From Prosopocoilus inquinatus (Eukaryota; Arthropoda; Insecta; Coleoptera; Lucanidae), in contig CM069880.1 of assembly GCA_036172665.1 (NCBI GenBank), forward strand, positions 7,008,501 through 7,072,500: a DNA stretch of 64,000 nucleotides, given 5' to 3'. The notes under the pieces are model-generated. The model was not told where the DNA came from and did not search any database. It worked only from the letters and a program-made list of their open reading frames with translations. Both the position numbers and the translations under genes were made by a program. Shown here piece after piece: positions 4,422 through 20,930 of this stretch. The first letter of the stretch is position 1; each line of letters starts with the position of its first letter.

Positions 4422-4704
4422 TTTAGCGCTTTAATTCAATTGAATATCTGCAAATTGTGAATGCTTCGATTTAGGGCTATAGTTGTTGAGTAAAACATGC
4501 TTATTTTGAAGAGCTCTATCGAAATCTGCAATCAAAATTAGTACATTCCGTTTGAAAAAGTAGATTACTCACTTATGGAACATGCTATAAGCGTAAAAAT
4601 AATTTGTTCTCGTTAAAGGCGAAAACTTTTGTAGAAGACATTTTCTGTGATAATTAATAATTAAGGCGCTATTGAAAAAGTCGATATCAATGACCCACCC
4701 TGTA
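4422..4704. repeat. Interspersed repeat, also present at 20579-20880
   Basis: About 280 bp that align along their length with 20579-20880. Shared blocks include ATTTAGGGCT, CTTATTTTGAAGAGCT, CTCACTTATGGAACATGCT and TAATTAATAATTAAGGCG. In both places the block abuts the terminal motif CTCAATAAGGGC of the TA/TIR family. It is either part of a longer relative of that family or a separate element often found next to it. No coding capacity. Confidence 0.65.
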
Positions 4705-5537
4705 TACCGGGTATCTCAATAAGGGCAGGGACCACAGATATATAACAAACCGTAATACGCGCAGTTTCAGGAGAAAAAAAGATTATAGTCGAAGTGACCA
4801 AGAAGAAAATATTTTTAAGTATCTGAGTTGATCAGAAGGCTCAACTATAAAAATTAATTAATTTTACTAACAAAAGTGTCGGGATAAGCTAAAGCTTTGA
4901 TAGTTTAATTGAGAAGCTGAATTAATTCTGCACAACTTTGATTTTAGACTTACTTATCGTACCGCCATTAATAAAAATGGAGGAAAGAGTTGAATTATTT
5001 ACTTAAATAGTATAGAAGTTATAATAATTTTTAATCAGAAATTAATGAACTTCGGCTCGTTTGAAAAGAAATTTTAAGTTGATTTAAAGTGTGCAATCAA
5101 CGGCTAATTTATTATAAAGTAGCTAGAAGGCGCAATTTGCTAAAGTAATAGTTTTCCCCGGTTCTCCAAAAAGAGAAATTAAATGGAAAGGTGTATTTCT
5201 TTTGCAGCAGCTACAAAGCTCACAAAATAGTGAGTATTATGGTGAAAATCCGAAATAATTACAGTTTACAGAAAGTTCAAACAACTTTTCATTTCAAGGT
5301 AAAATAAAGCATACAATTTTTTTTATTAATGTTATTTAGAAGCATTTAATTGTTTTTAGGAACAGATGATATGTAAACACAAGATCAAAACAACAAATAG
5401 AGAAACAAGAATAATTCAAACACTAAATAAAAACAATGAACCATAGTCATGCACATGATTAACAAAGTTTCACTGTATCGCGTTACTATACTTTTTTATT
5501 GTCCGCATAGAGTTGTGTAGAAATTATTATTGATAAC

Positions 5538-7279: not shown

Positions 7280-8895
7280 TATTTTCAAAGCTACAAAAAT
7301 TCAGTCAACTATTTATTCATTTTTTAAATGTGAACAACAATTTCCAAACCTGAATCACTATTATAATGCTTTATGGAATAAACAAATTAAACGACGCTTT
7401 GTTAGTTGTTAACTGACGGTTCTGTTTTATTGCGAGTTTGATATCGAATAAAACGAAATGTTAAAGAAGCGATAAAGCCGGAAAATTATGAAGACATTTC
7501 GTTCTGATAATTCCAGCTTTATTTTAGCTCTCATTATACCGGCGGAGACGGTAGCAAGCAAGCAAGGCAAAGAGGAAACGAAAATTATTCACCTGTAATG
7601 TGTTAAGAGTGTAGAACGTTAATGAAAGCAAAACAATTTCGGCGTCATTTAATATGAAAAGAGGTCGCGAATTGAAAATTCAAATTTCAGCAGGAAGCTT
7701 AGGATTATCAGACTCAACGGTATTCGAGCTAATTTGCAATAAATTCTTATTAAGGCAACATCCTAAAATATGAAATAAAGGCAATTGTAAAATATCGCCC
7801 TGTTTTTCGTCGAAAATTGCCGACGATAAATCTCGGGGAGCGTAAATAATTTTTTTCTTTTCCAAAAGAAAATGATTTCATTTAGGTATATCAAGTGTAT
7901 TCAGTTGCACTTAAAATAAACACAGCCTTAATGTCTCATCCCATCCAAGGGATATATAAGTAGTTGGAAAACATCCAAATACTCGTAGGCGTGCTGAAAC
8001 GTACACTTCAGTGCAAAATGGAACAAATAACTGATAATGCGATAACATATGTATTATTATGGCTAACCTGTTATTTTATTTGCTTTCCAGACAAGATTAA
8101 TGACACTCTTCTAATTACCAATAGTTTCGAATATAATAAATACCATTAATAGTCTGAAGTTCACAGTTACTTAAAGCAGATGAATACTCCGACGTCTGAA
8201 AGTATTTCAGTTTAGAAACTTTAAATTAAAACGTTCGGTTCCTGTGACAAAAAGTATTTTAAAGTTGGGAATTCAAATAAATTCGATCTGTTAACAGTTA
8301 GAAGTGAAACTTTGGAGAAGGCAAATATTTCTAAAGTAATTTTTAACGGATGTGATGGGATGTGATGTGATGTGATATCACGGATGTTTCGCCCGGCCGG
8401 TGGAAACTCTTCTATCTATTATTTAGATGTTAGTGGAGGCTTTATTAAAACAATTCATCATAGGAATTAAAATAGAGTTCGAGTTTAATGGTTAAGCGCA
8501 GTATAAAAAGTGATGAATATGCACCGCCGAACTTGTGCTTAATATAACGTTCCTCAATGCAAAATTTATCCACATCGTTCCGTCGCTATATTAAAAAATC
8601 CGGGTGGTTATTGACAGTGTCAGAAATTTATGAAAACATTTCCGTAGATATTAGAAAGCATTCCACGATTTGATTTACCCAAAAATTTGCATTGATACAT
8701 TGTGTTGCATTCAATCGTCGTATTCATATCTGCTCTTACGAAATATGTCGATATCTGTCAACGGCGTCAAACAAAAAATTATCTTTAATAAAATTCCTCT
8801 CTACAATTTCGAGGGTGCGTTTATTCCTTCCCCTAAAGAACAAGCAGAACACACAAAGCTGTATGCACCCTGTTTCAAAGTAAGTCGGCACCAAT
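7280..8895. other. Non-coding DNA, no gene recognised
   Basis: AT-rich. The only structured item seen is a short GATGT-type tandem repeat at about 8349-8377 ending in TGATATCACG. Small ORFs show no domain or splice context. Confidence 0.45.
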
Positions 8896-9326
8896 GCTAA
8901 CTTTCTTATTTTTAGAGCGACAGAGTTGTTTAAATTAGCAAATTTGTTTGACCTGTTTCGCTCATTACAAATCTGAAAACAGAAAAACAATTGAATGTAA
9001 AGTTTTCAAGATATATTTAGTTACATGTTTTATTTTGATGGAACACCTTGTATATTATCATCGTCAACGAAAGAAAAAATGAATTCTAGTTGTAAGTTCT
9101 TATGTACGCGTTATTTGAAAAATGTTATACAACTGAGATACATCAACTTAAAATTGACACCAAGCCTCTCCTCTTTTTTTAATTGTAATTATGATTTAAT
9201 TCATTGGCCTACTCTAATGATGTGAAAAAATGGTATTTCAGATTGTTTTGTACATACTTACGTACTTTATCATAACCTAGCTTTATTAGCCTATGGTACA
9301 GAATAACCTAATACACCTAGTTACGC

Positions 9327-9935: not shown

Positions 9936-10310
9936 ATATGGTATTTGACATACGACATTTTTCAAATATGGCGTACATAGGAACTTCTTATTAAAATTCA
10001 ATTTTCTTTCGTTTACGATGATAATATATAGGGTGATCCATTAAAAGAAAACATGTAACAAAAAATATCTCGAAAAGTTTGCACTCAATTGTTTTTCTGT
10101 TTTCATATTTGTAATGAGCGGAACAGGTCAAACAAATTTGCTAATTTGAATAACTCTGTAGATCTAAAAATAAGAAAGTTAGCACTTTGAAGCACTGAAA
10201 AGTTGTTAATTTTCATCGAATTTGGCGTTATTGTTCTCTTTTTCCGACTAAATTGTATCTAAAAGTGAGTGTTTATTCCAACAAGGATAAGCTTAACTCT
10301 GCTCTATTAC

Positions 10311-10314
10311 ATAC
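10311..10314. other. Target-site duplication ATAC (left)
   Basis: ATAC directly precedes the left LTR and is repeated exactly after the right LTR at 16841-16844. A 4-bp duplication is typical of many insect Ty3/gypsy elements. Confidence 0.9.
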
Positions 10315-10645
10315 TGTTACGTTTCTAGGGTTTATGTTTATTTATTTAAACAAATAAAACACTCGATAAAAACTTAACCGTAATTTAATAAAGCTTAAAA
10401 AACTAATTTATTTCTAACAATTTATTTTCACACTAAAAATCTAACTTCGACGATCGCTGTTCGAATTCGACTGCCTGGTGAGTCAACTCCGGGCGATTTT
10501 ATATCATTTGCTGGCGTCTGGAAGTCTCTATGCTGGAAGATTCTAGTTTGTTCGATGTAGGCCCCGAACGCGTGACGGCCGATGACACATCGAAGCGGAC
10601 CGACTTCTTGACGCCTTGCGCTAATAGTCAGGTTGGCTCGCCACA
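10315..10645 (-). repeat. 3' LTR of the gypsy element
   Basis: 331 bp, nearly identical to 16512-16840. It differs by A for G in the A-rich stretch near its left end and by two extra bases (AT) near its right end. On the minus strand, overlapping AATAAA signals at about 10337-10346 lie close to the LTR end and could serve polyadenylation. The stop codon of the integrase-macrodomain ORF (TGA at 10628-10630) lies inside this LTR. Confidence 0.95.
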
Positions 10646-12625
10646 CTGCCCCCTTCTTAGAAACGTTTCGTCTCGAAATGTTCCTGGTGATAGTCTTGAA
10701 GGAGGGTGTCGGAATCTACATGCTGGCCCATTCTTGCAACTTCCCGCCTGGAAGAAGTAACAGTCTACGGTTTTGCTGTTGCTGACTGTTGCCTGTGGGT
10801 GGTGGCTGCAGACTAGGACTTCAATTCCCGTTCTGTGGAAGATGACTTCCAGCATGCTTCGAATTACTCTCCAGTCTAGTCCGTCCAATCCGCAGCCCAA
10901 TTTGGGGATGGCTAACTTCATCTGATGGTTCTTTATTAGCTGTCTCCTCAGGCTATATAGGGCTCTCCAGATACTTTGATAGTCAGGTTTACCGCTTGAT
11001 GTCTTCTTAGTGACTAAATAATGCACGTGGCGCCTCCGATCTGCCGTCGAATCAATGATCTGCAAGCTCTTGCCTACCACGGGATGCTGTCTTCGTAGCT
11101 CCTCGATTTGGCCAAATTTCTTCTTAAACACCTGAGTGATTCCTTTGGACATTTTCAGGTCTTCTGCTACGCAGTGGGCCAGACTGTACTCCAGTGGCAC
11201 TTTAAAGAGATCTTGTTGCTTCTTCGTGGTCACTCCAAACCGTGCCTTGCTTCCTTCGGCGTGATGAGGCATGAAGGTTTCGAAGTTCACTTCGGAAACT
11301 TGCGCCCTTTGTACTGTCCCTTCATCTGCTTCTCCATGGTAAGGGGCTATCCGGTTGAAGTGGATTACTTTGGGTTTGCCATGGGGGACCTTCCTGATGC
11401 GGTAAACGACGTCGTTGATCCGTTTCATCACTTTGTAAGGACCTTCCCAAGAGGTCTGTAATTTTGGGGAGAGGCCTCGACGTCTTTGGGGGTTATAAAG
11501 CCAGACCAGTGCTCCAGGGTGGTATCCCCCGTGTTGAGCGTTGATGTCATAGTGCTCCTTCATCCGATCGCTGGCCGTCTGTATATTGTGACGCACTTGG
11601 TTGTGGATATCATCCATTTTCCTGCGTAATTTGCTCACGTAATCTTCGTCGGCAGAGACTTCGCCAGGCTTCACACCAAACTCGCAGGGCAGTCTCGGCT
11701 CTCGCCCGAATACCACTTTCGCGGGAGTCTCCCCTGTTGTCTCATGAACAGATGAGCGGTATGCCATTAGAAACAGGGGGATGTACGTGTCCCAGTCCCT
11801 CTGATGATTGGAAACGACCTTGGACAAATGCCGGTTGATGGTTCTATTGAACCTTTCCACCATTCCGTCCGACTGTGGGTGGAGTGCAGTTGTTCTAGTT
11901 TTTCGTACGCCGAGCAGAGTACACACGTTCTTGAACAAGGCCGATTCAAAGTTCCTTCCTTGGTCTGAATGCAGTTCCATAGGTGCACCATACCGACTGA
12001 TCCATTCCCTGACAAGGACTTCCGCAATAGTGACCGCCTCTTGGTTAGGTAGGGCGTAAGCTTCAACCCACTTACTAAAGTAGTCCATTACCACGACGAT
12101 GTACTTGTTTCCACCATTCGTTTCTGGAAACGGGCCGGCTACATCGATGGCAACCCTCTCAAAAGGACTTCCAACGTTGTACTGTCTCATGGGAGCCTTA
12201 CCCCGCCTGTGGGGGCCGTTACTGGCTGCGCAGACTGCACACTTTCTGCACCAATCCTTCACGTCTTCCTTGCAGTTCACCCAGTAAAATCTTTCGCGCA
12301 CCTTCTCCATAGTCTTCTTAACTCCCAGATGCCCTCCCGAAGTTCCATCGTGAAGTTCCCTCAGAACTTCTGGCACCCTATTCTTGGGGATTAGTAACTG
12401 TGTCTTCTCTTCCATGCCTTCTGGATTCTCCATGCTTCGTCTCAGAAGACCACGATCCAACACTATGGAGTCCCACTGCGCCCAGTATGATTTTACGGAC
12501 GGTGCACATGGTGCTACCTCTTCCCAGGTAGGCCTCGCGTCCCTGCTTTTCCATTCTAGCACTAATTTCAAATCCGGGTCGTTCTCCTGGTCTCTTCGCA
12601 GTTCTTCGCCATTTGTCATCAACAA
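10628..12625 (-). CDS. Integrase fused to TARG1-like macrodomain and CCCH zinc finger
   Basis: A 665-codon open frame. Residues 92-132 form the HHCC zinc finger (H92, H99, C129, C132). The catalytic core has D161, D221 and E257 with 35 residues between the last two, so the DDE triad is intact. The GPY motif is at 395-397. Ordinary gypsy integrases end soon after; here residues about 471-607 align by eye with the macrodomain of human TARG1/OARD1, which removes ADP-ribose from glutamate. Shared motifs are SLAHC (481-485), FKKKFG (500-505), YLVTKK (536-541) and GCGLD (577-581). K540 and D581 match TARG1 Lys84 and Asp125, with the same spacing of 41. A C-X7-C-X5-C-X3-H finger follows (C622, C630, C636, H640), and the frame ends inside the 3' LTR. 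The first triplet is TTG and the frame opens just after a TAG, so it is probably not initiated independently. It lies +1 relative to the upstream RT frame. Hydrolase activity is inference. Confidence 0.9.
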   Translation of the reverse strand: MLMTNGEELRRDQENDPDLKLVLEWKSRDARPTWEEVAPCAPSVKSYWAQWDSIVLDRGLLRRSMENPEGMEEKTQLLIPKNRVPEVLRELHDGTSGGHLGVKKTMEKVRERFYWVNCKEDVKDWCRKCAVCAASNGPHRRGKAPMRQYNVGSPFERVAIDVAGPFPETNGGNKYIVVVMDYFSKWVEAYALPNQEAVTIAEVLVREWISRYGAPMELHSDQGRNFESALFKNVCTLLGVRKTRTTALHPQSDGMVERFNRTINRHLSKVVSNHQRDWDTYIPLFLMAYRSSVHETTGETPAKVVFGREPRLPCEFGVKPGEVSADEDYVSKLRRKMDDIHNQVRHNIQTASDRMKEHYDINAQHGGYHPGALVWLYNPQRRRGLSPKLQTSWEGPYKVMKRINDVVYRIRKVPHGKPKVIHFNRIAPYHGEADEGTVQRAQVSEVNFETFMPHHAEGSKARFGVTTKKQQDLFKVPLEYSLAHCVAEDLKMSKGITQVFKKKFGQIEELRRQHPVVGKSLQIIDSTADRRRHVHYLVTKKTSSGKPDYQSIWRALYSLRRQLIKNHQMKLAIPKLGCGLDGLDWRVIRSMLEVIFHRTGIEVLVCSHHPQATVSNSKTVDCYFFQAGSCKNGPACRFRHPPSRLSPGTFRDETFLRRGQCGEPT
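10646..10658 (-). other. Polypurine tract
   Basis: Read on the minus strand, AAGAAGGGGGCAG abuts the 3' LTR. This is the expected position and composition of the primer for plus-strand DNA synthesis. It overlaps the 3' end of the coding frame. Confidence 0.8.
10796..11215 (-). other. Macrodomain segment (TARG1/OARD1 type)
   Basis: Codons 471-610 of the integrase ORF. Macrodomains bind ADP-ribose, and the TARG1 branch also cleaves it from glutamate through a lysine and an aspartate, both of which have counterparts here. The segment is in frame, uninterrupted, and lies between the integrase GPY region and a CCCH finger (10706-10762), so it is part of the element's polyprotein and not an adjacent host exon. 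It also lies within both LTR boundaries. Confidence 0.85.
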
Positions 12626-14960
12626 TGGCTGTCCTCGCAGTCGTGGCTATTTTCTCGTCCAAACGACTACAGTGCTTACAGTCTTCGGCACAGGGCCTTC
12701 TCGACAGAGCATCGGCATTTCGATGGCTAGTTCCTGCCCGATGCTGAATTTCAAAATCGTACTCCTGAAGTCGTTCGATCCATCGTGCAACTTGCCCTTC
12801 TGGGTTCTTGAAACGGAGAAGCCATTTTAGAGCGGCGTGGTCGGTCCTCAGCAGGAAGCGTCTACCATACAAGTACTTGTAGAAGTGTTCTATCGTTTTT
12901 ACGACGGCTAGCAATTCCCTTCTTGTGACGCAATAGTTTCGTTCCGGCTTTGATAGGACTTTACTGAAGTAGCCGATCACCTTCTCTTGCCCCTCTTGTA
13001 TCTGGGAGAGTACGCCACCAATCCCAACGTTGCTAGCATCTGTGTCCACGACGAACTTACCTTCCGGGAGAGGATAACTCAGAATAGGAGCACTAACCAA
13101 GTACTGCTTTAGTTGTTCAAAGCCAATTTGACACTGTTGGTCCCATTCAAATGGACGACCTTCTTCAGTGAGTTTTGTTAACGGCTTAGCAATGTCTGCA
13201 AATCCAGGAACGTAGCGCCGATAGTAAGTGCACAGGCCAAGGAAACTCCTTATTTGGTGTTTATTTCTGGGAGTTGGCCAGTCTTTCACCACCTGAATCT
13301 TCACAGGGTCCACGGCGATTCCGTTTCCATTAACAATGTGCCCCAGGTAATTCACTTCCTTCTGGAACAGGTGACACTTCTTGAGGCTAAGCTTTAGTCC
13401 AGCTCCGCGAAGCCGCTGGAACACTCCTTCCAGGTTCCTTAGGTGGTCGTCGAACGTCTTTCCCACGACAATTATGTCGTCAAGGTACACCATGCACGTT
13501 GTCCAGGACAGACCTTTCAGAACCGTCTCCATTAACCTCTCGAATGTCGCTGGGGCATTACATAACCCGAATGGCATCACTGTGAACTGCCACAGACCCA
13601 TACCAATGGAAAACGCCGTCTTTTCTCGATCTTCGGGCGCCAGCTCCACTTGCCAATATCCACTCTTTAAGTCCAAAGTTGAGAAGATCTTTGAGCCGGC
13701 CAGGGTGTCCAGGGTATCATCAATCCGGGGCAAGGGATAGCTGTCCTTCTTGGTGACATTATTGAGTAACCGGTAGTCTACACAGAACCTGGTGGACCCA
13801 TTCTTCTTCTTCACAAGCACTACTGGTGACGCCCACGGGCTGCTTGATGGTTCTATTACATTATCCTTTTCCATCTCGCGAATAATGCGTTCCGCTTCCT
13901 CACGCTTCGCCAACGGTAATCGCCTTGGAGCTTGACGGATAGGTCTTTCTTCTCCAGTCTCTATTTTGTGTTTCACGACATCAGTTCTTCCCTTGGATCC
14001 ATTTTCTACCTCAAATACATCTTGATAGCGGCCGATCAGATTCTTTGCTTTTGTCTTCTGGTCTGGAGTCAATTCCTGGGCTGTTGACATAACCATTTCC
14101 CATAATTTCTTTGGGACTTTCGCTTCTGGCACGTTTGTTTCAAGTTGCCGGGAGATGGAGGACACCATGGTGCAGCTTCCCAAGATTGTTCCTTTCTTGA
14201 TATTGACAGAGAAACAATTGACGTTCATCAGGCGGACAGGTACTTCCTTCTTCGCCGTCAACAACATTTTCCCAACGAGGACTCCTCTTCCAATCCTTTG
14301 ATCATCAGTATTAGGTTCAACCATAATGACTTGCCCATCTTGAAACACACCGTCCAGTTTTGCGTCGACGATAACCTCTGTCCTGCTGGGTAATACAACG
14401 TCTTCAGCGAGGACTACTCGAGCGGCCACGTCCCCTCGTTGATGTAGAACCAACTCCTCATTATTGACCGCCATCACGCCACGCTTTAAGTCCAATTGGA
14501 ACCCGTGGGCACACATGACGTCCATGCCCAAAATTGCCTCGTCCTCTATATCTGCCACCAGTGCACGGTGTTTTATTGGAGTTGAACCAATGGTGATGAT
14601 AACCTCTACTTCACCGTGGACAGTTGCTGATGTTCCAGTTGCAGTTTTCAGTTTCCACTTTGTCGGCTCGGTGCGTCCAGATGACTTAATGACGTCGGGT
14701 CTTAGGATGGTCTTCGTCGCACCCGTATCCAACAACATGGTGTGAGGAATGTCATCAATGGTAACATCCACGAAGATACTGCTGGTTAACTGCCGTAGGG
14801 ATATTACTTGGTTGGCTTTCGTCTTTGGGGGCCTTTGAATACGGGTCGACGTTTGCCCCTCTGCACCGACCCGGCTTAGTTTAACTGTGGCTTCCTTGGA
14901 TCCTGTCTGGGCTTTGGACATCGCCTGCGAACATGTCCTTCCTCCTGGCAATTCCAACAC
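12378..14960 (-). CDS. Pol: protease, reverse transcriptase, RNase H
   Basis: An open frame of 860 codons that overlaps gag in the -1 frame. The first triplet is GTG, so translation is expected by frameshift from gag and not by its own start. The aspartic protease active site is LLDTGA (76-81, D78). RT runs from about 360 to 540, with D430 in STLDLKSGYW and the YLDD box at 492-495. RNase H has D641 (TDAS), E682, D707 (TDHAALKWL) and D750 (NADALSR). All expected catalytic residues are present. After about residue 770 the peptide no longer resembles pol and the expected sequence continues in the +1 frame (integrase ORF), so the last roughly 90 codons are probably not meaningful. The RT-RNase H tether is standard for Ty3/gypsy. 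Confidence 0.93.
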   Translation of the reverse strand: MLELPGGRTCSQAMSKAQTGSKEATVKLSRVGAEGQTSTRIQRPPKTKANQVISLRQLTSSIFVDVTIDDIPHTMLLDTGATKTILRPDVIKSSGRTEPTKWKLKTATGTSATVHGEVEVIITIGSTPIKHRALVADIEDEAILGMDVMCAHGFQLDLKRGVMAVNNEELVLHQRGDVAARVVLAEDVVLPSRTEVIVDAKLDGVFQDGQVIMVEPNTDDQRIGRGVLVGKMLLTAKKEVPVRLMNVNCFSVNIKKGTILGSCTMVSSISRQLETNVPEAKVPKKLWEMVMSTAQELTPDQKTKAKNLIGRYQDVFEVENGSKGRTDVVKHKIETGEERPIRQAPRRLPLAKREEAERIIREMEKDNVIEPSSSPWASPVVLVKKKNGSTRFCVDYRLLNNVTKKDSYPLPRIDDTLDTLAGSKIFSTLDLKSGYWQVELAPEDREKTAFSIGMGLWQFTVMPFGLCNAPATFERLMETVLKGLSWTTCMVYLDDIIVVGKTFDDHLRNLEGVFQRLRGAGLKLSLKKCHLFQKEVNYLGHIVNGNGIAVDPVKIQVVKDWPTPRNKHQIRSFLGLCTYYRRYVPGFADIAKPLTKLTEEGRPFEWDQQCQIGFEQLKQYLVSAPILSYPLPEGKFVVDTDASNVGIGGVLSQIQEGQEKVIGYFSKVLSKPERNYCVTRRELLAVVKTIEHFYKYLYGRRFLLRTDHAALKWLLRFKNPEGQVARWIERLQEYDFEIQHRAGTSHRNADALSRRPCAEDCKHCSRLDEKIATTARTAIVDDKWRRTAKRPGERPGFEISARMEKQGREAYLGRGSTMCTVRKIILGAVGLHSVGSWSSETKHGESRRHGREDTVTNPQE

Positions 14961-16411
14961 ACCAGCGGCTTCTTCTGCTTGAAGACCTGTTCCACAATGC
15001 GGCGAACATCCTCGGCGGTGGTATACTCCCTGGGTCGCTCCTTTATAGCAGATCCCACCTTGGCGTTAGCGGATTCTTCCTCTTCTTCCTCTTGGAAGTC
15101 CATAGCCGCTCGCACCTTGACATGCCCTCTTGAGACTCGTCTCGCCGCTTCAAATTCCAAGGCATAAGCCAATGCGTTCTTGGACGTCTTCGGATGAGTC
15201 ATTCTCAATGCCTGCTGGTTGTCTGGGTCACGGATTCCATCTATGAAGGTCTGCACCGTCAAACATTTGAGGAATTCAACAGGAGCTGTGGGATATGCCA
15301 ACTGGGCCAGACGCGCAACGTCTGCTTCGAATTCCTGAAGAGTTTCTCCGGATTTCTGACAGCGATTCCTCAACTGCGCATGGTATACCTCGGTCAGATG
15401 GGCCTGTCCGTAACGCATTTCCATCCTATTCACCAGCTTGTCGAAGTCTTCTTGTTCCTCTGGCGGCATCGTCTGTAGCACATCGATAGCGTCCCCTCTC
15501 AAGGCCACAATTAACGAAGTGGCTTTTTCGCTGGCCGTCCATCTGTTCGCCTTTGCTGCTGCTTCGAACTGTTTGAAGTAGTTGGGCCAAGAAGATTTTC
15601 CATCGAACGTCGGTGGTTTTATTTTTAATTTCGAATTTTCTGCTGGTCCTTCCACAATTCGGGTTTCATTATTTTCTAGTACTTCTATTGGTGGCTGATC
15701 CCCGAACACTCGCAACCCCGCCATGATTTGTTCCAGATTTTTGATTTTATTATCCTGCTGGAATATTATTTCTTCCACATTTTCTTGCAAGTTCCTTGTT
15801 TCTTCCGATATTTTTACCACTAGTTGATCTTCAAGTCCTTTTGTTTGTTCTAGAAATTTCTCGTCGAAATTTCTGGATTGCTCTCGAAATTTCTCGTCTA
15901 AGTCTCTAGATTGTTCCAACAATTTATTCTGTAATTTGTCGAAATTTCCAGCTTGTTCTAGAAGCTTCTCCTCTAAATTTCTGGATTGTTCCATTAATTT
16001 AGTTCGCAACTCGTCTTTGAAGTTTACAGATTGTTCTCGAAGTTCGTCCTTGAAATTTTCAGATTGTTCTAGAAGCTTCTCTAAATTTCTGGATTGTTCT
16101 TGAAGCTTCTGTAAATTTCCAGACTGTTCTTGAAACTTCTCGTCCAAATTTCTGGATTGTTCTCGAAGTTCGTCCTTGAAATTTCTGGATTGTTCTCGAA
16201 GTTCATCTTTCAAGATTTTATTAAAATCGACGGGACCACACGAAATTTCAAAAAGGAAGGTCTCTGGATCTTCACCAGCTGTTAACAAATCGGATCGGAG
16301 ACGCTGTTGAAGTGCGCCTTTCAAACCACAGGTTTCTAACTCTCGTTCTTCCAATTCGGTTTTTAATTCGGCCACTTTTAAGTCTTTCAACAACACTTTT
16401 CTCGTAGCCAT
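14876..16411 (-). CDS. Gag polyprotein with SAP-like head, coiled coil, zinc knuckle
   Basis: 511 residues starting at an ATG in good context (AACAATGGC). Residues about 6-42 resemble a SAP helix-turn-helix motif (LKDLKVAELKTELEERELET and following). Residues about 66-190 are a run of near-repeats of the type KDELREQSRNF, mostly 11 residues long, predicting a long coiled coil. Residues about 262-430 resemble the retrotransposon Gag capsid region (PPTFDGKSSWPNYFKQFEAA). A basic, acid-punctuated linker leads to a CCHC zinc knuckle at 485-498 (C485, C488, H493, C498), which would bind RNA. The frame ends CAG TTA AAC TAA, so a GTTAAAC heptamer abuts the stop and the pol frame is entered by a -1 shift. 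Confidence 0.92.
   Translation of the reverse strand: MATRKVLLKDLKVAELKTELEERELETCGLKGALQQRLRSDLLTAGEDPETFLFEISCGPVDFNKILKDELREQSRNFKDELREQSRNLDEKFQEQSGNLQKLQEQSRNLEKLLEQSENFKDELREQSVNFKDELRTKLMEQSRNLEEKLLEQAGNFDKLQNKLLEQSRDLDEKFREQSRNFDEKFLEQTKGLEDQLVVKISEETRNLQENVEEIIFQQDNKIKNLEQIMAGLRVFGDQPPIEVLENNETRIVEGPAENSKLKIKPPTFDGKSSWPNYFKQFEAAAKANRWTASEKATSLIVALRGDAIDVLQTMPPEEQEDFDKLVNRMEMRYGQAHLTEVYHAQLRNRCQKSGETLQEFEADVARLAQLAYPTAPVEFLKCLTVQTFIDGIRDPDNQQALRMTHPKTSKNALAYALEFEAARRVSRGHVKVRAAMDFQEEEEEESANAKVGSAIKERPREYTTAEDVRRIVEQVFKQKKPLVCWNCQEEGHVRRRCPKPRQDPRKPQLN
14879..14885 (-). promoter_or_regulatory. Candidate -1 ribosomal frameshift heptamer GTTAAAC
   Basis: In gag phase it reads G TTA AAC, immediately followed by TAA. 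Slipping back one base at this heptamer leads exactly into the pol frame (GTT AAA CTA), where the protease follows. GTTAAAC is a heptamer known to work in arterivirus recoding. A downstream stem or pseudoknot was not modelled. Confidence 0.6.
15840..16215 (-). repeat. Degenerate 33-bp coding repeat in gag
   Basis: About eleven copies of a unit that reads GATTGTTCTCGAAGTTCGTC-like on the plus strand and encodes the 11-residue pattern DELREQSRNFK. Some copies are shortened or lengthened by a few codons. Hendecads give slightly left- to right-handed straightened coiled coils. The copy number probably varies between element copies. Confidence 0.75.
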
Positions 16412-16493
16412 TGTTTTTTTTTTCCGATACTGTACTTATTTAATAATCTGATTAAATTTAATTTACTTTAAATTGTTTATTTATTTGCACAAA

Positions 16494-16510
16494 CCCCACA
16501 CCTGACACCA
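16494..16510 (-). other. Primer binding site
   Basis: One base inside the 5' LTR, the minus strand reads TGGTGTCAGGTGTGGGG, complementary to a tRNA 3' end finishing ...CCTGACACCA. Such an end suits a leucine tRNA whose acceptor begins GTCAGG; the tRNA identity is inferred. Confidence 0.75.
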
Positions 16511-16511
16511 C

Positions 16512-16840
16512 TGTTACGTTTCTAGGGTTTATGTTTATTTATTTAAACGAATAAAACACTCGATAAAAACTTAACCGTAATTTAATAAAGCTTAAAAAAC
16601 TAATTTATTTCTAACAATTTATTTTCACACTAAAAATCTAACTTCGACGATCGCTGTTCGAATTCGACTGCCTGGTGAGTCAACTCCGGGCGATTTTATA
16701 TCATTTGCTGGCGTCTGGAAGTCTCTATGCTGGAAGATTCTAGTTTGTTCGATGTAGGCCCCGAACGCGTGACGGCCGATGACACATCGAAGCGGACCGA
16801 CTTCTTGACGCCTTGCGCTAAGTCAGGTTGGCTCGCCACA
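16512..16840 (-). repeat. 5' LTR of the gypsy element
   Basis: 329 bp. In element orientation it begins TGTGGCGAGCC and ends GTAACA. Its near-identity with the 3' LTR marks a recent insertion. It should contain the promoter; a TATA-like sequence is listed separately. Confidence 0.95.
16694..16700 (-). promoter_or_regulatory. TATA-like box in 5' LTR
   Basis: The minus strand reads TATAAAA about 140 bp into the LTR, upstream of the presumed R region. Position and sequence suit a core promoter. The start site was not identified. Confidence 0.45.
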
Positions 16841-16844
16841 ATAC
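16841..16844. other. Target-site duplication ATAC (right)
   Basis: Exact match to 10311-10314, closing the insertion. Confidence 0.9.
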
Positions 16845-20443: not shown

Positions 20444-20930
20444 GGGTGTCTCAATAAGGGCGGCGACTGGCGGTATTTAGCAAACCGTAATATCTACAGC
20501 TTCGGGAGAAAAAAGACTTTATAGTCAAAGTGACCAAGAAAAATTCAAAGAAAACATTTTTAAGTACCTCTACCTCTACATTTTAGCTCACTAAATCAAT
20601 CGATATATCTACAGATTGCGAATGTGTCAATTTAGGGCTGTAGTTGTGTAAAATATGCTTATTTTGAAGAGCTATATCGAAATCTGCCATAAAAATTGGT
20701 ATATTCCATTTAAAACAGTAGTAGTTAGTTTGGCAGATAACTCACTTATGGAACATGCTGTATATAGAAAAATAATTTGCTGATACAGAACTCGTTAAAG
20801 GCGATAACTTTTGTAGAAAACATTTTCTCTTATAATTAATAATTAAGGCGTTATTGAAGAAATCGATACCAATGACCCAAGCTGTATATTGGGCATCTCA
20901 ATAAGGGCGGCGACCGGCGATATACAGGCT
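20444..20930. mobile_element. Fragments of the TA/TIR family with embedded repeat
   Basis: The terminal sequence CGGGTGTCTCAATAAGGGCG at 20444 is followed by about 135 bp that match the left arm of 4707-7277. The sequence then switches to the 280-bp repeat shared with 4422-4704 (20579-20880). A second terminus-like CATCTCAATAAGGGCGGCGA follows at about 20894. It reads as nested or chimeric copies. Confidence 0.6.

Follow-up and report, generated by a model that had tools for sequence, protein, structure and literature searches.

A young Ty3/Gypsy-type retrotransposon of the beetle Prosopocoilus inquinatus encodes a Pol that ends in a predicted TARG1-type macrodomain and a CCCH finger

A 64,000-nucleotide stretch of the genome of the beetle Prosopocoilus inquinatus (contig CM069880.1; referred to here as the window) contains, at 10315..16840 on the minus strand, a recently inserted long terminal repeat (LTR) retrotransposon of 6526 bp whose Pol ends in a macrodomain and a CCCH zinc finger. 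Sequence comparison and fold prediction place the macrodomain with TARG1 (OARD1), a mono-ADP-ribosyl (adenosine diphosphate-ribosyl) hydrolase, and it is fused to the integrase of this young Ty3/Gypsy-type element. The shared frame, on the minus strand, has 665 residues and a TTG start, and its integrase carries the DDE triad D161, D221 and E257. An initial annotation, made from the letters alone, had described one uninterrupted frame with integrase parts, macrodomain and CCCH finger, and this was confirmed by Pfam domains and by direct comparison of the macrodomain with human TARG1 (E 6e-30). The Pfam Macro model scored 16.8 bits on the window frame, under its cut-off of 22. The predicted fold, a check named beforehand, is that of a macrodomain, as annotated, and is nearest to TARG1; a structure model of the entire frame was too poor over the integrase to be used. 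The finger exceeded its Pfam cut-off (25.3 bits against 20.5), with ligands C622, C630, C636 and H640 in the C-X7-C-X5-C-X3-H arrangement that had been annotated.

The two catalytic residues of TARG1, Lys84 and Asp125, align with K540 and D581, which were found at the residues annotated and with the same spacing of 41 residues. The ADP-ribose-binding residues G43, I44 and G123 of TARG1 (PMC5928194) correspond to G495, I496 and G579. Ser35 of human TARG1 is Ala in the window domain, as it is in the fly OARD1s returned. What distinguishes the window domain from TARG1/OARD1 (also known as C6orf130, an ALC1-like macrodomain hydrolase), with which it shares fold, sequence, catalytic Lys/Asp and binding glycines, is its fusion within the Pol of an LTR element and, in the window family, the added CCCH finger. 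A specific kinship of the finger with CPSF30 was considered but not adopted; the whole-chain E-value of 5.9e-14 sums over five fingers, with a weak best single match (E 0.0049), and we therefore regard the finger as one of the common CCCH type.

Three protein searches for relatives in other species returned 143 (best 120 listed), 10 and 182 (best 120 listed) matches, and among the matches listed from the first, the best identity to the window frame was about 57%. Integrase core, macrodomain and CCCH finger occurred together in Harmonia axyridis (P0097), in Diabrotica virgifera (P0106), on contigs P0001, P0010, P0105 and P0142, and on P0075, a contig whose record is assigned to the powdery mildew Erysiphe pulchra. 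The P0075 and Harmonia macrodomains form a pair in a tree (95/87), and P0075 is probably a piece of beetle DNA that ended up among fungal sequences. The gene models examined from Aromia moschata (many) and Molorchus minor contain C-terminal parts of the integrase, the macrodomain and the finger without the integrase core, which is probably due to how the models were predicted; Pyrocoelia pectoralis and Gonioctena quinquepunctata have shorter macrodomain proteins. We take the named animal hosts to be beetles. Viral contigs, scanned with the window frame only, gave no relative. The initial annotation had held that loss of the segment from other copies would speak against it; the copies and species examined retain the macrodomain segment. 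In an Aromia-dominated alignment of 160 rows, which included the window, five fly OARD1s and P0130 and of which 115 of the 152 rows clustered form one Aromia group, the Lys84 position was K in 153 rows, R in one and a gap in six, and the Asp125 position was D in 155, E in one, G in one and a gap in three. Among element rows, the catalytic Lys and Asp were each kept in 23 of 24, and the binding glycines were kept in most rows. The macrodomain is thus probably catalytically competent, judging from its residues.

The element belongs to a young family. A search of the same 650-Mb assembly with the macrodomain-CCCH query gave 1484 first-look candidates, of which 150, the window copy included, were scored; all 150 matched at 95-100% identity, and 148 were stop-free. 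The integrase-macrodomain stretch of 60 copies was aligned with the window, and one of the 61 rows (L032) was dropped for gaps. Nine key residues were intact in all 60 remaining rows, and five of the 60 had a stop within codons 79-657. Insertion ends were examined in the window and in 20 copies, mostly picked for long open frames; both ends were clean in 17 insertions, 16 of which had a 4-bp duplication, with the form RTAY in 13 of the 16. The intact copies and clean duplications indicate that the family is young and that its integrase has worked.

Macrodomains of this type were not restricted to the window family. When the same genome was searched with a fly OARD1 (P0126), 150 matches were scored, and 20 of these loci were fetched and sorted by eye into the window family (L157) and families A (L138-L141), B (L142-L144, L146, L147), C (L148, L150, L155), D (L152, L153, L156) and E (L145, L149, L151, L154). 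The positions of G43, K84, G123 and D125 were occupied by G, K, G and D in all 20, while I44 was replaced by L in L149 and L151. None of these 20 was clearly the host's own OARD1; L154, a 210-aa open frame with a family E-like macrodomain, is ambiguous between element and host gene. Family D has the integrase or its C-terminal part followed by the macrodomain, without the CCCH finger, and L152 of this family runs 773 codons without a stop. A GRPKK stretch, which we take to resemble an AT-hook, precedes the L152 macrodomain, and a repeated W..EDEIPL.EL motif follows it. At the fetched loci of families A, B, C and E, no integrase core was found in the macrodomain's frame. A stretch of 41-47 residues in L138, L139 and L141, 23-27% identical to the integrase C-terminus, was taken as chance. 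Upstream of the macrodomain, a retroviral aspartyl protease scored above the Pfam cut-off in the four loci scanned (L138, L142, L151 and L150) and was assumed for the remaining members by family membership; the upstream piece of L151 also has CCHC knuckles. Downstream, reverse transcriptase (RT) shares one open frame with the macrodomain in family A (L128) and lies in the macrodomain's frame in family B, where the copy has a 1953-aa open frame. In family C (L150/L159) and subfamily E1 (L145/L161), RT lies no more than 1.8 kb downstream, in a different frame of the copy read, and none was recognised within the fetched piece of two E2 copies.

RT identity to the window was 86% for P0142, 64% for family D, 55% for A and B, 54% for C and 53% for E1. 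Families A, B and E1 were 82-99% identical to one another, C was 44-54% identical to all, and D was 48-52% identical to A, B, C and E1. The TARG1-type domain is therefore carried, in two positions, by four RT groups (window type, D, A/B/E1 and C) that are 44-64% alike. Between A and B (L138/L128 against L142/L158), DNA identity was 71-76% over the macrodomain and 95-97% over most of RT; such unequal identity by module marks them as mosaics and indicates that modules recombine between families. Because related elements hold the macrodomain between protease and RT, the common factor is presence in Pol and not attachment to the integrase. The initial annotation had proposed a captured hydrolase acting at the DNA breaks of integration. 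The captured TARG1-type domain stands, on its sequence, predicted fold, conserved catalytic and binding residues and between-family selection, and the break-specific role becomes only one option given the protease-RT position.

To assess selection, the ratio of replacement to silent substitution (dN/dS) was estimated by the Nei-Gojobori method over the macrodomain in 17 pairs. It was 0.13 between A and B (dS 1.39), 0.22 for E1/E2 (dS 0.40), 0.17 for E1/E3 (dS 0.95), 0.19 for E2/E3 (dS 1.02) and 0.24 for D/D2 (dS 0.05). Near-identical pairs were scattered from 0.24 to 0.84 (0.80 from four and 0.84 from eight differences), two pairs had no silent change, and two between A/B and E1 were saturated. 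Within the young burst, all copies were drawn from the best macrodomain matches and are biased to intact macrodomains. Variants found in at least two of the 60 rows gave a replacement-to-silent polymorphism ratio (pN/pS) of 0.28 for the macrodomain, 0.30 for finger and tail, 0.27 for the linker and 0.17-0.23 for the integrase parts; an earlier count over 20 rows had given 0.74 for the macrodomain from seven shared variants. With a biased sample and few variants, the case for selection rests on the between-family comparisons, which support purifying selection on the macrodomain between families and its maintenance in such elements. It is very improbable, and already disfavoured, that the domain is a functionless piece of a host gene carried along by chance. 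The young copies are near-identical, so that within-family tests have little power to speak against such a capture, but the low ratios between diverged lineages (0.13-0.22), the retention of the same residues by elements from several beetles and the occurrence in two positions and four RT groups all do.

The best overall explanation, to which we give a probability of about 0.55, is that a TARG1-type domain is maintained in Pol and removes ADP-ribose to protect the complexes of the element. Carried into the particle within Pol, the macrodomain would, after or without cleavage, strip ADP-ribose placed by host PARP-type enzymes on Asp/Glu of element proteins. Alternative targets may be ADP-ribose on phosphate ends of element RNA and complementary DNA. 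TARG1 is known to catalyse both reactions; its action on ends of nucleic acids that carry ADP-ribose, and the in vitro modification of DNA ends by PARP1-3, are described in PMC7050489. Removal would keep reverse transcription or integration complexes working. The protease-RT position widens the candidate role from integration to any step of the particle or the pre-integration complex.

Several observations weigh against this explanation. In Diabrotica P0106 the catalytic positions are occupied by R and E, yet the macrodomain is retained, and in some lineages, such as this one, the domain may only bind. Median identity over 15 pairs of six element lineages was 58% in the macrodomain compared with 82% in the integrase core (the finger had 52%). 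Variants shared by at least six young copies comprised one silent and five replacement changes in the macrodomain, numbers too small for a verdict, although they point the other way from the comparison between families. In a rival reading, the macrodomain would be a reader in place of an eraser, tethering the intasome to ADP-ribosylated chromatin much as a chromodomain might. It occupies the same site, after the integrase C-terminal domain, as the accessory chromodomain of Ty3 (PMC8632968) and of chromoviruses (PMC3605345), and both P0106 and the binding glycines kept in most rows are in keeping with binding. By analogy, such a role fits the geometry of the window family and the Diabrotica variant. 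It fits less well the retention by 23 of the 24 element rows of a catalytic pair that binding alone would not need, the macrodomains away from the integrase in families A, B, C and E, and the RTAY duplications at 13 of 16 sites, which are expected of a sequence-guided integrase. We consider this reader role unlikely.

A CCCH finger follows the macrodomain in window-type elements, and in a further alternative this finger would hold the domain to RNA and the domain would counter ADP-ribosylation-based silencing or restriction of element RNA or transcription, on chromatin or RNA before integration. TARG1 binds RNA (PMC5928194), its activity on nucleic-acid ends (PMC7050489) would suit such a role, and L1 is silenced by SIRT6 via mono-ADP-ribosylation of KAP1 (PMC4695847). 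Family D, however, has no finger, and the best single-finger structural match is the weak one given above; we hold this alternative, too, to be unlikely. Protection of element complexes by a hydrolase in Pol remains the reading that we prefer.

The ancestry of the domain was addressed with a tree of 34 macrodomain rows, of which 24 were from elements and which included four viral-contig rows and one clostridial row. Window-type rows formed a clade (97/98), with the viral-contig and clostridial rows outside it and the deep order open. An earlier and smaller tree (26 rows), which predates the discovery of the other families, grouped the element rows available at that stage in one clade (98/96). 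Approximately unbiased tests rejected none of the groupings, whether all 24 element macrodomains (p 0.458), the post-integrase set (p 0.134) or the protease-RT set (p 0.226), to which L154 was assigned solely by its likeness to family E. Because no grouping was rejected, a single capture that was passed around and several captures are both possible. Eighteen viral-contig loci (L001-L018) have TARG1-like macrodomains 29-38% identical to that of the window, and a clostridial contig has a stand-alone one (L019:3284-3736). The neighbours of the latter are, as we take them, a hisI-like frame directly downstream and a hisF-like frame farther upstream.

The features of the window copy are listed in the table. 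The LTR pair, first picked up as a 300-nt repeat in the window, differs by a single mismatch and one 2-nt gap. The class was assigned from the LTRs, target duplication, gag and the order protease, RT, RNase H, integrase. Pfam, with E-values up to 1 allowed, reported no chromodomain C-terminal to the integrase, where macrodomain and finger sit. The last five codons of pol before the stop fall within the 3' LTR; macrodomain and finger therefore form the very end of Pol, with no env behind them and no room left for one.

In the window copy, the frame changes between RNase H and integrase, near 12.6 kb, which is why the integrase frame begins downstream of RNase H. A programmed signal was ruled out, since the frame is unbroken there in the relatives P0105 and P0142 and over 40 of the 150 same-genome copies listed lie within open frames of at least 1400 aa. 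As read from these sequences, the break is either private to the window copy or an assembly error. In some copies the open frame is about 1950 aa long instead of 1480 aa, perhaps with gag and pol joined. The SAP domain of gag is a DNA-binding motif, and SAP (PF02037) is also assigned to many Aromia gene models of the same element type. Within gag, at 15822-16241, a 75-nt repeat occurs seven times in copies that overlap, several at 33-nt spacing, and encodes a coiled-coil-like array of EQSRNL-type units. Beside the element lies an inverted repeat (8895-9077 and 10002-10184; 183-nt arms, 90% complementary, 924 nt apart), and diverged direct repeats (87%) of another repeat family flank the insertion at 4482-4742 and 20640-20924.

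Table. Features of the retrotransposon in the window (positions in the window; residues numbered in the integrase-macrodomain-finger frame).
Feature	Position	Strand	Remarks
Target site duplication ATAC	10311..10314 and 16841..16844	.	flanks both element ends
5' LTR (element sense)	16512..16840	-	329 nt
Probable primer binding site	16494..16510	-	TGG start, adjoins 5' LTR; assigned by position alone
gag	14876..16411	-	SAP domain, coiled-coil-like repeats, CCHC knuckle
gag SAP domain	16289-16390	-	N-terminus of gag
gag CCHC knuckle	14912-14962	-	within gag
pol first frame	12378..14960	-	protease, RT, RNase H
Protease	14517-14771	-	pol first frame
RT	13332-13814	-	pol first frame
RNase H	12759-13067	-	pol first frame
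pol second frame in window copy	10628..12625	-	integrase, TARG1-type macrodomain, CCCH finger
Integrase H2C2 zinc-binding domain	12218..12391	-	Pfam Integrase_H2C2, residues 79-136
Integrase core	11885..12166	-	Pfam rve, residues 154-247
Integrase C-terminal domain	11342..11443	-	Pfam Integrase_p58_C, residues 395-428
TARG1/OARD1-type macrodomain	10802..11242	-	residues 462-608; sequence and predicted fold
K540 (TARG1 Lys84)	11006..11008	-	alignment with TARG1
D581 (TARG1 Asp125)	10883..10885	-	alignment with TARG1
CCCH zinc finger	10700..10774	-	Pfam zf-CCCH, residues 618-642
Probable polypurine tract	10646..10658	-	purine-rich, adjoins 3' LTR; assigned by position alone
3' LTR (element sense)	10315..10645	-	331 nt

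Among known systems, the macrodomain fold of alphaviruses and rubella virus matches the window domain, and it lies inside the viral polyprotein as that of the window lies inside Pol. The DarG antitoxin and the TARG1-like macrodomains of viral contigs are prokaryotic or viral, unlike the window element. Some fish Epsilon-like endogenous retroviruses have macro-domain open reading frames (Basta et al. 2009, as cited in PMC4977317). These are likewise retroelements with a macrodomain, a likeness drawn by description only, but the frames are additional ones in vertebrate retroviruses, whereas here the domain is an in-frame part of Pol in an insect Ty3/Gypsy-type element. Gene capture in crocodile endogenous retroviruses involves other genes (PMC4299795). 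At the level of titles and abstract beginnings, with most subscription journals outside the search, no macrodomain was found described in the Pol of Ty3/Gypsy elements, which is weak evidence of absence.

RNA viruses that infect vertebrates, such as alphaviruses and coronaviruses, use macrodomains for counter-defence, and vertebrates have many antiviral PARPs; insects are thought to have few PARPs. We tentatively propose, as a possibility short of an even chance, that beetle LTR retrotransposons of several RT groups repeatedly took up or exchanged a host-type hydrolase, at two sites in Pol, as counter-defence against an unrecognised ADP-ribosylation-based defence of insects against retroelements. 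That an apparently active TARG1-type hydrolase is kept under selection by several LTR retrotransposon lineages of a single insect genome points to pressure from ADP-ribosylation on retroelements there and makes this idea testable, and the integrase-hydrolase and protease-hydrolase-RT proteins are natural probes of which step is hit. The occurrence of such domains at two sites in Pol suggests a part for ADP-ribose tagging in the struggle between insects and their mobile DNA.
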